Assembly: GCA_001799695.1 (NCBI GenBank)
Contig: MGTY01000038.1
Location: forward strand, 7,880 to 58,564
Source of the DNA: Elusimicrobia bacterium GWA2_69_24
GTDB taxonomy: Bacteria; Elusimicrobiota; Elusimicrobia; UBA1565
Reading direction: 5' to 3'
DNA length: 50,685 nt
The notes beneath the pieces were generated by a model that worked only from the letters and a program-made list of their open reading frames with translations, ran no database searches and was not told the origin of the DNA. Positions within the stretch are counted from its first letter, which is position 1. Every line of letters starts with the position of its first letter. Of this stretch, positions 8,957 to 50,685 are shown piece by piece. Both the position numbers and the translations under genes were made by a program.

Positions 8957-9069
8957 GCCCGGGCTGTGCCCGGGCACAGTTGCGGCGCGCGCGCCGGCAG
9001 GCAACTGGCAGCGCACGCCGCAGACCGTGAGCGTTGGGCAGACCTGAAGCAGAGCGGAATAGAAGAGCC
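8957..9069. other. Structured spacer downstream of the M2 peptidase gene
   Basis: The 113-bp gap begins with the dispersed palindrome CTGTGCCCGGGCACAG. An inverted repeat AGTTGC...GCAACT enclosing GGCGCGCGCGCC follows. No T-run is present, so termination is uncertain. Confidence 0.45.
8964..8979. repeat. Dispersed 16-bp palindrome, copy 1
   Basis: CTGTGCCCGGGCACAG, perfectly self-complementary, 7 bp after the M2 peptidase stop codon. Four further identical cores occur in the window, all intergenic. Confidence 0.8.
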
Positions 9070-9097
9070 TTGACATTCCCGTTATTACTGTTATAAT
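9070..9097 (+). promoter_or_regulatory. Consensus sigma-70 promoter of the toxin-antitoxin operon
   Basis: TTGACA (9070-9075), a 16-bp spacer and TATAAT (9092-9097): both hexamers match the consensus exactly. This is the clearest promoter in the window. A GGAGG ribosome-binding site follows 5 nt before the antitoxin ATG. Confidence 0.9.
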
Positions 9098-9102
9098 AAC
9101 AG
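9088..9102. promoter_or_regulatory. Operator-like perfect dyad over the -10 box
   Basis: CTGTTAT and ATAACAG are perfectly inverted around one central A and cover the -10 hexamer. GTTA and TAAC lie just outside on each side. Autoregulation by an AbrB/MazE-type antitoxin binding such a dyad is usual for these operons; here it is inferred from position. Confidence 0.75.
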
Positions 9103-9121
9103 TGTACTAACGGAGGCGGTC

Positions 9122-9349
9122 ATGGTAAAATTCCTCACCAGAGTCGGCAATAGTGAAGCGCTCGTCATAGACAAGGCCATACTATCCCTTCTTCATATAT
9201 CCGAGACCACGCCCCTGGAGATCACGACGGACGGCAAGAATCTGGTCATCTCTCCGATCTCGGAACCCGGCCAGGTCAAAGAAGCGCTCAAAGCGTATCG
9301 TACCGTTAAGAAGAGGTTCGGCCGCGCCTTGAAGCGACTGGCAGATTGA
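9122..9349 (+). CDS. AbrB/MazE-type antitoxin
   Basis: A 75-residue protein with the swapped-hairpin DNA-binding fold of AbrB/MazE/SpoVT proteins. The N-terminus reads MVKFLTRVGNSEALVIDKAIL and then LEITTDGKNLVISPI, matching the GNS-x(n)-V-I-x-K and DG-x-L-x-I-x-P features of the family. The basic C-terminal helix (about residues 50-75) would wrap and neutralise the toxin. It has its own consensus promoter and GGAGG site. The toxin ATG follows directly on its TGA. Base composition is visibly less G+C-rich than the flanks, suggesting acquisition. Confidence 0.85.
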   Translation: MVKFLTRVGNSEALVIDKAILSLLHISETTPLEITTDGKNLVISPISEPGQVKEALKAYRTVKKRFGRALKRLAD

Positions 9350-9751
9350 ATGTCGCCGCGTTTCCTATCACTCGCGGAAGTCCTCGAGTTCCACGAGGAT
9401 CTGCTCCGCTCTTTCGGAGGGAAACCCGGCATCCGAGACCTGGCGCTGTTGGAATCCGCAGTGGTAATGCCGCAGAGCGGATCGGGGCAAGAGTACTTTC
9501 ACGAGTTCCCTTTCGGAATGGCGGCGGCCTACGCATACCACATAGCCCAGAACCATGCTTTCGTCGATGGGAACAAGCGGACTGCGCTGGCAACCGCGCT
9601 GGTCTTCTTGGAGATCAATGGGCATCCCGTGCTGGGCGGTGAAGCTGAGTTGGAGGCAGCCACCCGAAGAGTCGCCTCAGGCAAGCTGGACAAGGACGGC
9701 TTTGCAAGCATACTCGAGAAGACCTACAAACTCTGTAAGGGCGGAACCTAA
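9350..9751 (+). CDS. doc: Doc/Fic-type death-on-curing toxin
   Basis: A 133-residue Fic-fold toxin. The signature HAFVDGNKRTAL matches the Doc motif HxFx[D/N]xNKR, with all active-site residues present. Upstream segments (GIRDLALLESAV, YAYHIAQNHAF) also fit Doc proteins. E. coli phage P1 Doc phosphorylates EF-Tu and stalls translation; the same activity is inferred here. The partner is AbrB/MazE-like rather than the classical Phd, a mixed pairing. No intergenic base separates it from the antitoxin stop codon, so translation is coupled. Confidence 0.9.
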   Translation: MSPRFLSLAEVLEFHEDLLRSFGGKPGIRDLALLESAVVMPQSGSGQEYFHEFPFGMAAAYAYHIAQNHAFVDGNKRTALATALVFLEINGHPVLGGEAELEAATRRVASGKLDKDGFASILEKTYKLCKGGT

Positions 9752-9781
9752 GTTGCCAAGGGCATACCCAAGAATGGCTAG

Positions 9782-9922
9782 ATGGTCAAGCACAAGAACT
9801 CGCCCCACATCGACTTCTGGTGGAATCTGAAAGAGGGATATGATTTCTTTGAGAGGTCGAAGACGCCGCCCAATGCCGAGGCCTCACGCGGCCGATATGT
9901 TTTCAGAGCGGAAGCGGACTGA
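9782..9922 (+). pseudogene. Remnant of an L,D-transpeptidase-like gene (C-terminal tail)
   Basis: An ATG-to-TGA frame of 46 codons gives MVKHKNSPHIDFWWNLKEGY, then DFFERSKTPPN and GRYVF. The W-x-NLKEGYD-x-FE ... PP ... GRYVF pattern is what I recall from the C-terminus of YafK-type murein L,D-transpeptidases. No upstream catalytic domain (HxG...SxGC) is found; a TAG stands immediately before the ATG. It lies just after the toxin gene, so the rest of the gene was probably lost when the toxin-antitoxin module arrived. The family call rests on memory of the motif only. Confidence 0.45.
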
Positions 9923-10028
9923 GACGGCTGACATCGGGGACGGTTGGTTCCAGTTGCGGAGCGACAGACGGCGCGACGATCGTAGTCGGGACTGTGCCCG
10001 GGCACAGTCCTCGGCCCGCCCGGGGGGA
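9923..10028. other. Short spacer with dispersed palindrome
   Basis: About 105 bp between the L,D-transpeptidase remnant and the end of the SRPBCC gene. It contains palindrome copy 2 and no recognisable gene. Confidence 0.5.
9992..10007. repeat. Dispersed 16-bp palindrome, copy 2
   Basis: CTGTGCCCGGGCACAG, here extended to a perfect 22-bp palindrome (GGA...TCC, 9989-10010). It lies downstream of the minus-strand SRPBCC gene, where it could act as a 3' hairpin. Confidence 0.8.
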
Positions 10029-48236: not shown

Positions 48237-49544
48237 CTAGAACGTCACGCCCACGAACGCCCCGCTGACGTTGTCCAGGTAGTTGAACTGGGCGCTCTGC
48301 GTGGAATGCTTCTCCTTGTGCGAGTAGGAGAGCCCGACGCTGAGATAGTCCTGAATGTCGTAGGTGAGGGACGCGAACTGCGTGTAGATGTCATCGCGCC
48401 GGTTCGCCTCGGTGTCCGAGACGGCCTCCGGGTATTGGTCGAATCCGATGGCGCCCCCCAAGGCGATGACGAGCTTGTAAGGCAGCTTGTGCTTGATGCT
48501 GAGGGCCGCGAGGTTCGCGATGTAGAACCGGTTGCCCGCGTAGGTGGATTCCTGGAGTCCGCGGCTCAGGCGCAGGTTGACGTCCGTGCGCGCGCCGGGC
48601 TTCCACTGGCTCTGACCCATGATCACCCAGTTCCTGGTCGAGCCGGTGCGGCGGGCCGTGATTTCGGCGCGGTCCGTCTCGGGGCCGTCGTACGTGCGGT
48701 GCACGACGCCGGTCTCGATCGAGCCCTGCACCTTGGGCAGGATCCGCCCTTCGATGCCGGCGACGAGGAGGTCCGCCTTGTTGTTCTTCGCGTCGTAGGT
48801 GTTGCCGCCGGCCGCGTACTCGTCGATCGTATAGTGCACGATCTGGCGCTTGTAGCCCGCAAAGACCCGGGTCTTGGTCATGATCCGCAAGCCCATGCGG
48901 CCGCCGACGGTGAGTTCGTAGCGGTCGAGGGCCGCGGCGAGGCTCTCGTTCTGGTAGCGGTGGACGAGATGCTCACCGTCGGCCGCGATGTAGAAAGCCC
49001 CCCCGCCCGGCGCGTACTCGATGACGCCGCCGGCCGAGTTCTGATAGCGCTGTTCCCGGTCCACGAGCTCGGAGCTGGCCGGGTCCTGGGTGTTCACGTA
49101 GGTGTCCTGCGCCTTGAGGGAGAAGCCGGCCGGGCCCTTGAACCCGTAGCCCAGGTTGACGTTCTGCTGGACGGTGTTGTTCCGGCTCGGGTGCTTGGAG
49201 TACGCCAAGGACTGGCCGGCGTAGCCCCCCTGGAACTGATGCCGGCTCGTCGCGGGAAGCTTCAGGCTCACACCGAAACTGTTGTCGATGATCATCGAGC
49301 CGAACACCTGCTGGGAGTCCTGCGAGCGCAGGTAGATGTTGTCGTCGTAGCTCGCGGTGACCCTGTAGTACGGGTGGAACTCCAGCTTGCCGAACTTCAG
49401 GTTCGGCTTCTTGAACTGGGTGATGGACTCCTTCAGGTTGAAGAAGACGTCCAGCAGGTCGCCCCCGCGCAGGAAGTCGTCGGCCGAGGCGGCTTGCGGG
49501 ATGAGCAGCGCTCCCGCCAGCAACATGGTCAGCGATCGAAGCAT
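48237..49544 (-). CDS. Outer-membrane beta-barrel protein
   Basis: A 435-residue exported protein with signal peptide MLRSLTMLLAGALLIPQAASA. After ~40 residues, HPYYRVTASYDDNIYL starts a long run of alternating amphipathic strands (YDDNIYLRS is typical of the OMP_b-brl_2 group found near exopolysaccharide genes). The last residues VSGAFVGVTF end in Phe, a BAM signal. Function is unknown; a porin or exopolysaccharide-linked channel is possible. GGGGG lies 8 nt before the chosen ATG, 16 codons inside the longest frame. The upstream hairpin may form part of its leader. Confidence 0.75.
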   Translation of the reverse strand: MLRSLTMLLAGALLIPQAASADDFLRGGDLLDVFFNLKESITQFKKPNLKFGKLEFHPYYRVTASYDDNIYLRSQDSQQVFGSMIIDNSFGVSLKLPATSRHQFQGGYAGQSLAYSKHPSRNNTVQQNVNLGYGFKGPAGFSLKAQDTYVNTQDPASSELVDREQRYQNSAGGVIEYAPGGGAFYIAADGEHLVHRYQNESLAAALDRYELTVGGRMGLRIMTKTRVFAGYKRQIVHYTIDEYAAGGNTYDAKNNKADLLVAGIEGRILPKVQGSIETGVVHRTYDGPETDRAEITARRTGSTRNWVIMGQSQWKPGARTDVNLRLSRGLQESTYAGNRFYIANLAALSIKHKLPYKLVIALGGAIGFDQYPEAVSDTEANRRDDIYTQFASLTYDIQDYLSVGLSYSHKEKHSTQSAQFNYLDNVSGAFVGVTF

Positions 49545-49564
49545 GGACTTATCCCCCTTAAGCA

Positions 49565-49593
49565 CTTGACCCTCCCCGGAGGGAAGGGTCAAG
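49565..49593 (-). terminator. Hairpin between rpsT and the beta-barrel gene
   Basis: CTTGACCCTTCCC and GGGGAGGGTCAAG pair over 13 bp with one mismatch and a TCC loop. No T-run follows, and the beta-barrel ribosome-binding site begins 8 bp further on. It may attenuate read-through from rpsT or structure the leader. Confidence 0.5.
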
Positions 49594-49619: not shown

Positions 49620-49907
49620 TTAAGCCGCTGCGGTCTTCGCGAGTTGGGCGGCCAGCCGGGATTTCCGGCGGGAAGCCGTCTTCCAGTGGATGGTGCCCTT
49701 CTTCGCCATCTTGTCCAAAGCGGAGTAGGCGGACGTCAGAAGCTTCTTGGCGTCCCCCTGCTTCTCTTTCGTGCCCACCGCGGTCATATACTCCTTGGTG
49801 GTCTCGCGCATCTTCTTGCGAAGGATGCGGTTGCGGAGCGCCGCTCTCTGCGACTGCCGGTGAGCCTTCATGGCCCCCGTGTGCCGTCCGGTCTTCAGTT
49901 TCGCCAT
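49620..49907 (-). CDS. rpsT: 30S ribosomal protein S20
   Basis: A primary 16S rRNA-binding protein. The 95-residue sequence is highly basic and helical, with NRILRKKMRETTKEYMTA, SALDKMAKKGTIHWKTASRR and KSRLAAQLAK, all characteristic of S20. Length is normal. A TTGACG-18-TATAAT promoter ends 8 nt before the ATG and there is no Shine-Dalgarno sequence, so translation is probably leaderless. It sits near holA as in many bacteria, with the beta-barrel gene between. Confidence 0.95.
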   Translation of the reverse strand: MAKLKTGRHTGAMKAHRQSQRAALRNRILRKKMRETTKEYMTAVGTKEKQGDAKKLLTSAYSALDKMAKKGTIHWKTASRRKSRLAAQLAKTAAA

Positions 49908-49992: not shown

Positions 49993-50046
49993 GCATGCTC
50001 CGGAGCATGCCCGACGCCCAGCGCAAAGGCCGACCGGCCGGTCGGC
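49993..50046. repeat. Two further perfect 18-bp palindromes
   Basis: GCATGCTCCGGAGCATGC (49993-50010) and GCCGACCGGCCGGTCGGC (50029-50046) are each fully self-complementary. Together with the preceding 16-mer they form a cluster of cruciform-prone sites. The rest of the 267-bp gap (to 50174) is AT-richer and holds a direct repeat AGGATTAA(T/A) at ~50082-50098, but no gene. Confidence 0.75.
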
Positions 50047-50111
50047 AGTTCTCTGCTTTCTTGCCTGATCCACCTCCCCAGGATTAATGAGGATTAAATG
50101 GACTTTTGCCA

Positions 50112-50120
50112 TGCTATGAT
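50112..50120 (+). promoter_or_regulatory. Possible extended -10 promoter (TGcTATGAT)
   Basis: TGC plus TATGAT, 54 nt before the lipoprotein ATG. No clear -35 is seen. It lies before the GTTAGAC boundary, so it could act as an external promoter for a captured gene. Confidence 0.4.
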
Positions 50121-50162
50121 TGGTTTTAGTACCCCGCGAATTACAGGTCAGCCCACTCTATC

Positions 50163-50616
50163 GTTAGACTCACGATGAATCTAAAACGAGGTTTGGCGGG
50201 ACTTTTGGCAGGGCTCTTCCTGGCGAATGCCTGCGAGTATTATGTGGTGCCAGAGCGCGGGAAGACATTGCTTCAAGTTGACGTCGACACAATAACGCGA
50301 GGCACAACAACGAAGAAGGAGGTTGAGACACGATTTGGCAAGCCCGACGCGAGACAACTCACCCCTTCAGGGGAGCCATTCTGGCAGTACTGTCATTCAC
50401 CAGGTGGGCGAGTGGAACACCTAAGCATCCAAGGCCAGTCCTCTGACAATCGCCGATGGAAATGCTTGAGCATCGTGTTTTCGTTGGATGGCATTGTTAA
50501 GGATTACGTGTTCCGCGAATTTAGCGCTGGGCTGGATCAGTATGATAAGCAGGGTGGCCTTTGGACGCCTGGGCGAGTTCAGTTATACCCATAGATTATG
50601 GCAAGCGGAGTCTAAC
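50163..50616. mobile_element. Possible integron-type gene cassette boundaries
   Basis: GTTAGACTC (50163-50171) just before the gene and GAGTCTAAC (50608-50616) just after it are perfect 9-bp inverted repeats. GTTAGAC fits the integron core site GTTRRRY and GTCTAAC the inverse core RYYYAAC, in the places expected for a cassette. No integrase gene is in view, and the window ends before a full attC site could be confirmed. Confidence 0.4.
50175..50594 (+). CDS. BamE/SmpA-like small lipoprotein, atypical composition
   Basis: A 139-residue protein with a signal peptide (RGLAGLLAGLFLANAC) ending in a lipobox-like Cys. ITRGTTTKKEVETRFGKPDA is the G-xT-xxxV-xxxxGxP motif of SmpA/OmlA/BamE-type domains, followed by WQYCHSPGGRVEH and SIVFSLDGIVKDYVFRE, the usual strand pair. 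It is likely an envelope lipoprotein, but not necessarily BamE itself. Codon use is clearly less G+C-biased than in neighbouring genes, indicating recent acquisition. It is bounded by inverted repeats like integron core sites. Confidence 0.7.
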   Translation: MNLKRGLAGLLAGLFLANACEYYVVPERGKTLLQVDVDTITRGTTTKKEVETRFGKPDARQLTPSGEPFWQYCHSPGGRVEHLSIQGQSSDNRRWKCLSIVFSLDGIVKDYVFREFSAGLDQYDKQGGLWTPGRVQLYP

Positions 50617-50685
50617 ATTCGGTACTGCGGGCGCGGGCCTCGAATAGGAACAGACATGCCGGGACCGGTTACCGTCGGCACCCAC
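50595..50685. other. Window end, possible attC remainder
   Basis: The 91 bp after the lipoprotein gene contain GTCTAAC and then ATTCGGTACTGCGGGCGC, returning to high G+C. ATTCG and CGAAT are short inverted arms here. No gene is visible before the end. Confidence 0.4.

Follow-up and report, generated by a model that had tools for sequence, protein, structure and literature searches.

An integron attI/Pc platform without a neighbouring integrase, carrying a first gene cassette beside rpsT in an Elusimicrobia genome

Introduction

How does a gene cassette come to stand beside a ribosomal protein gene with no integrase next to it? The usual picture of an integron comprises a single integrase, a single attI site and a single array. 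The window (the whole stretch of DNA analysed here, 50,685 bases of Elusimicrobia bacterium GWA2_69_24, positions 7880-58564 of contig MGTY01000038.1, or C38) ends with a small gene between inverted repeats, which the original prediction had read as an isolated integron cassette. Taken as a whole, that reading was partly supported: the gene belongs to an integron cassette with R' and R'' core sites, but the cassette is not an isolated one.

Results and discussion

A truncated gene cassette at the end of the contig

The gene stands between GTTAGACTC (50163-50171) and its perfect inverse, GAGTCTAAC (50608-50616). Neither has a further copy in the 50,685-base window, against 0.11-0.15 expected per shuffled window, and the integron-core-like inverted repeats first noticed around the gene thus hold up. 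The features at this end of the window are:

50164-50685, + strand: first gene cassette, truncated (9-bp R'/R'' pair, start of attC, contig end)
50175-50594, + strand: cassette gene for a 139-residue presumed lipoprotein, possibly BamE-like (open reading frame, N-terminus, weak fold matches)
50608-50616, + strand: R'' core GAGTCTAAC, the inverse of the cassette start (exact-match count against shuffles)
50610-50685, + strand: attC, the 5' 76 nt, cut by the contig end (R1 covariance model, 57.7 bits)

At least 522 bp of the cassette are visible. The final base of the window is also the final base of C38, which is why neither the cassette nor its attC is complete. The gene had been described as poorer in G+C than its surroundings, in agreement with the 53% of the 500-base bin 50001-50500, the lowest among the bins listed for the window; the second lowest is 9001-9500, at 55%. 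The product is plausibly a lipoprotein, as had been suggested, to judge from a signal-like N-terminal stretch followed by Cys20, but no family was found for it at E<=0.1 in Pfam or NCBIfam. Its structure model is poor (pLDDT 52.6), and the fold search returned weak matches to BamE/OsmE among others (best E overall 0.04), so that the protein is at most possibly BamE-like.

The original prediction hinged on an attC at the right boundary and on similar boundaries around other genes. An attC does begin at 50610, as assessed with a covariance model (R1) made from eight other attC sites of the same genome, the window site not included: the match has an E-value of 8.5e-14, covers model positions 1-76 of 109 and is truncated at the 3' side. 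About 74 bases at the right end of the window also match nine other places in the genome with 74-89% identity, four on C105, four on C21 and one on C132. Eight of these are the complete sites of the R1 alignment; the ninth (C105 near 18949), whose right half differs, was omitted. The structure, drawn from one site, has an R stem, an L stem with two bulges and an inner hairpin. Across the eight sister sites 84.7% of the cells pair, compared with 29-41% when the partners are slid by 1-3 columns, and 11 of the 32 pairs show changes on both sides. When R1 was run over the whole genome, with 150 of 2728 first-look candidates scored, it gave at least 18 matches at E<=0.01 on at least 11 contigs, a list of 18 from which the truncated window attC is itself absent. 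The further cassettes that had been anticipated are thus present, as additional attC arrays whose sites all belong to one subfamily; weaker matches that have no clear R sites may be degenerate attC. Matched ends surround other genes of the genome too, those of the cassettes on C21 and C105 being 8-9 bp long. We conclude that the element flanked by GTTAGACTC and GAGTCTAAC is a real integron gene cassette.

The leader and its paralogues

Window positions 50028-50169 are a paralogue of the segment that lies directly 3' of the integrase gene (intI) on contig C3. There, the order is a terminator-like palindrome, an extended -10 promoter and attI, and we refer to this unit as the leader. Its features in the window are:

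50029-50046, no strand: GCCGACCGGCCGGTCGGC, a perfect palindrome that corresponds to the terminator-like stem behind intI on C3 and in relatives (alignment with the C3 and C67 leaders)
50080-50097, + strand: direct repeat AGGATTAA TG AGGATTAA, kept in the C3 leader and mostly in that of C67
50112-50120, + strand: TGCTATGAT, the extended -10 of what is presumably the cassette promoter Pc, identical in three leader copies
50100-50169, + strand: attI site, outer limits approximate (C3 paralogue 86%, C67 paralogue 88%)

A DNA search of the genome with window positions 50075-50175 found exactly three places, the window itself, C3:41070-41148 (86%) and C67:22882-22945 (88%). Homology to the window leader is clear from the palindrome near 50028; that of C67 begins upstream of the leader, inside the last codons of intI and right after another gene. 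The palindrome GCCGACCGGCCGGTCGGC occurs once in the window at up to two mismatches, and similar stems stand after intI in relatives; a simple terminator scan listed none at 50029-50046. The two copies of AGGATTAA occupy 50080-50087 and 50090-50097. The presumed Pc is recognised by the extended -10 conserved in the three leaders, and a strict -35/-10 promoter scan of the window did not list it. The repeat and the extended -10 had been thought to belong to an attachment and promoter region; because their stretch has paralogues on C3 and C67, they are not there by chance and the assignment was borne out. The window attI shares an ACTC-NNNN-GTT ending with the attI of relatives. We infer that recombination takes place between G50163 and T50164 (GTTAGAC, which conforms to GTTRRRY), and the position of the paralogous site beside intI suggests that the window site would function as attI.

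That a leader has simply been misjoined to rpsT, its neighbour in the window, by assembly or binning is very improbable. All three leaders of the genome end at or near contig ends (C3 ends within its own), so that one cassette of one dock, as we call such leaders, is all that is visible in this genome, and the assembly is 85% complete in 132 contigs. Against this, the window copy diverges by 14% from the C3 leader and by 12% from that of C67 and is therefore a sequence of its own, and intI-less leaders of relatives lie inside long contigs, as at 101.6 kb of the 124-kb contig C63 of G010 and at two places on C67 of the same genome (128 kb). Simple misassembly was rejected on the strength of the 12-14% divergence.

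A lone cassette at a non-classical genomic site (attG) is more improbable still. Insertion at attG has been described in the accessible part of PMC12901181, and a single visible cassette beside a housekeeping gene would suit it; the insertion point, however, lies in a paralogue of an intI-adjacent attI and not in generic sequence. As an attG is neither attC nor attI by definition, this candidate was rejected.

The integrase and the chromosomal site

The sole integron integrase gene of the genome lies at C3:40040-40978 and reads towards the leader. Its product scores 445 bits against TIGR02249 (curated cut-off 265) and 281 bits, over residues 95-406, against the solved structure of Vibrio IntI4 (chain 2a3v), with the IntI-specific stretch aligned. 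The R, H..R and Y motifs, which we take to be the catalytic residues, are kept in this alignment, and the integrase looks intact from its sequence. The early statement that no integrase is visible therefore applies to the window but not to the genome. About 90 further residues precede the integrase domains at the N-terminus of the protein (L022 18256-18540), and two Nitrospira homologues align with it from residue 11. In relatives of the same order, too, the reading direction of intI leads to a stem, promoter-like DNA and an attI with GTT.

No intI stands beside the window platform: intI is found on C3 alone, and the other side of the leader is occupied by rpsT. The locus is thus an integron platform without an integrase and not a complete integron. 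In layout it is an attI/Pc platform with its first cassette and without intI, and its architecture is that of a 'reverse' integron. The view of an isolated cassette was abandoned, as the leader is paralogous to the intI-adjacent attI/Pc on C3 and other arrays, as well as intI, exist in the genome.

The chromosomal flank of the platform is:

49620-49907, - strand: rpsT, ribosomal protein S20 (PF01649, 74 bits; TIGR00029, 69 bits)

In six of seven relatives of the same family, inspected by eye, rpsT lies head to head with uvrC (UvrC was model-confirmed in two); in the seventh, G006, another gene takes this position. In our genome the platform occupies the usual position of uvrC, and uvrC was not found in the assembly (85% complete, 132 contigs). 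Its absence is expected if uvrC lies beyond the unassembled array, and an assembly of this completeness may lack the gene otherwise. The intI-less leader of G040:C45 (L235 1-260) starts directly after the 3' end of a uvrC gene, whereas the platform of our genome adjoins rpsT, which usually flanks uvrC on the opposite side. A gene for a beta-barrel porin (PF10082; window 48237-49592) lies between a holA-like gene and rpsT and is absent there in two relatives.

Leaders without intI in relatives

A set of 57 genomes, our own included, was searched for intI and for leaders. Matches to intI at E<=1e-30 occurred in 22 of the 57 genomes, and over the cut-off in 21. The window leader, used as a DNA query, had no match in the 56 other genomes. 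A leader of G003, from the same family, found a further copy at G003:C2, with no intI within the fetched flank. From a leader of G049, copies lacking intI were found in G014 and in G010; alignment of the G014 copy with an intI-adjacent leader begins at about the stop codon of intI. A sequence profile of seven leaders (R2), five beside intI and two not, was then run over the 57 genomes and gave 22 leader matches at E<=1e-5 (seven of them the training leaders), all in one genus of the same order and in seven genomes: seven in G010, six in G040, three in G051, two each in G014 and G019 and one each in G049 and G022. An intI accompanied five of these 22 strong leaders and was lacking at 17. A tblastn search with the intI product of our genome at 20 leaders (the 17 strong ones and three weaker) detected no intI, merely C-terminal scraps at G022:C72 and G051:C32 and one further match at chance level. 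The total of intI-less docks listed across the order is 20, and two are found in this genome.

The reach of R2 is limited. It finds none of the leaders of our own genome at E<=0.1 (the window leader reached E 0.011 in a small search) and scores the intI-adjacent leader of G010:C21 at E 0.06 only; 12 matches outside the genus were weak and were left unused. For G051 and G022, no intI was found in the search of the 57 genomes, so a supply in trans is not evident there.

In the related genus, a hairpin is predicted between the -10 and attI (L031, L174, L036, L037, L048, L051 and L175; A4 columns 56-75), six of its eight predicted pairs changing on both sides. It could form a 5' hairpin of the cassette transcript; its counterpart in the window leader is weak. 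Two complete integrons of G003, on C44 and C16 (ends of L033 and L049), show the same 21 bases after attI at contig breaks, as if both arrays started with the same cassette.

Cassettes at the docks

Loading was assessed at 17 loci with downstream DNA, namely the window, 15 of the 17 strong docks and G003:C2. A 9-bp R'/R'' pair was found at 6 of the 17, the window included, and an 8-bp pair at two more, whereas among 498 control GTT starts taken upstream 9 bp were matched in none and 8 bp in eight. For the attC sites of the docks we relied on R1, an exact-arm detector having been dropped as too strict. Over 21 regions (160 kb, both strands), R1 detected seven attC at E<=0.05, all seven downstream of a leader and on its strand, which accounts for 6 of the 17 strong docks; it detected none at the other 11, in two cases because the contig breaks off immediately. 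Docks without intI hold cassettes.

Proposed origin and mode of action

We put at about 0.7 the probability that the locus is a platform (stem, Pc and attI) with a first cassette and without intI, on which the C3 integrase most likely acts in trans. According to this model, the integrase, encoded beside a paralogous attI, would act on dispersed attI docks, inserting circular cassettes, through their folded attC, at the G|TT of each, and the local Pc would express the first cassette at each dock. Loading in trans would then most likely be the function of the intI-less docks. For the order as a whole, the integron may be a distributed one, with scattered stem-Pc-attI docks of about 140 bp that are served in trans by one or a few integrases drawing on a shared cassette pool, and with some of the CALINs counted in surveys being docks whose attI went unrecognised; this wider proposal is tentative, and we give it not quite even odds.

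The copies without intI would derive from complete 'reverse' integrons in which either intI was lost except for its 3' end or the 3' part was duplicated. Relics of the intI tail stand just before the stem at 4 of the 20 intI-less copies, three recognised by a SPAD motif (C67 of our own genome, G000; G010:C50; G051:C32) and one by tblastn (G022:C72). In copies free of relics, homology starts at about the intI stop or at the stem, in two leader groups. This pattern fits the loss of intI down to a stem-Pc-attI unit and, equally, the copying of that unit.

The relics also suit a decaying remnant of a complete integron, in which the loss of intI has left a platform and a last cassette that are now inert, or kept only because Pc drives a useful gene, with no loading in trans. 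Several weak or partial leaders, the degenerate attC sites and an interrupted array copy of a toxin gene point the same way. Decay, which we regard as doubtful, is opposed by the perfect 9-bp ends of cassettes at 6 of 17 docks tested, by attC sites that the model still recognises and by several docks per genome with differing first cassettes. Somewhat less probable again, and in our opinion unlikely, is that the stem-Pc-attI module is itself mobile and spreads as a unit independently of intI loss. The nearly constant start of homology in the intI-less copies (intI stop or stem), seen in three leader groups, would be explained in this way, as would the up to seven strong copies per genome on different contigs; however, the intI relics that precede some copies indicate loss in place, and neither a transposase nor a target duplication nor a fixed right end was found for the module.

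Relation to known integrons

Loading of integrase-less docks in trans, the reading we prefer, departs from the known systems in different respects. The integrons of Treponema have a 'reverse' intI, which faces attI and has the same orientation as the cassettes, and the available part of the paper that describes them states one attI per integron (PMC3607928). The present system resembles this sedentary chromosomal type in the orientation of intI and in its attI, attC and cassette ends, but in Treponema attI lies beside intI, whereas here copies of attI/Pc are also found at other loci without intI. Cassettes and attC without a neighbouring intI recall CALINs, whose mobilisation in trans has been proposed as possible (PMC9668308 and PMC12444791, in the portions accessible to us). 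CALINs, however, are defined by two or more attC and without attI or a promoter, whereas the window has one truncated attC before the end of C38 and an attI/Pc leader at the head. According to the accessible text of PMC9024848, detection of attI by IntegronFinder 2.0 is confined to class 1, and docks without intI would therefore be filed as CALINs. Sequences derived from attI also occur in arrays, away from intI, in the delta-attI cassettes of mobile integrons, which, as far as the accessible part of PMC12901181 goes, are mostly short attI pieces that replace attC within one array; here, in contrast, it is a whole stem-Pc-attI leader at a separate locus. No description of dispersed attI/Pc platforms was found in the literature searched, within the portions of it that were accessible and with preprints and most subscription papers outside its scope.

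If docks are dispersed and loaded in trans, both their number and the length of the array would set the capacity of an integron, and the expressed first position could be held by several cassettes at once. Dispersed docks also offer a testable origin for part of the integrase-less cassette clusters.

Other cassettes and repeats of the genome

The arrays on C21 and C105 have a ParDE-type cassette in common, with 89% identity, which, together with the single attC subfamily, speaks for a pool of cassettes shared between arrays. This toxin-antitoxin cassette lies near 40.1-40.7 kb of C21 (L020) and near 18.4-18.9 kb of C105 (L018), and its toxin frame is open in the C21 copy only. An Rfam search over the window and the C105, C21 and C132 stretches returned one tRNA.

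A 16-base palindrome, CTGTGCCCGGGCACAG, occurs five times in the window (8964, 9992, 12801, 25299 and 49963) and never in shuffles. This motif also makes up the inner hairpin both of attC sites (C132, C63 and C17) and of attC-like repeats that lack clear R sites (C31, C42, C2, C107 and C49), and could represent a dispersed repeat common to attC sites. Window positions 9001-10000, a second stretch of low G+C (55-58%), contain one of these palindromes.
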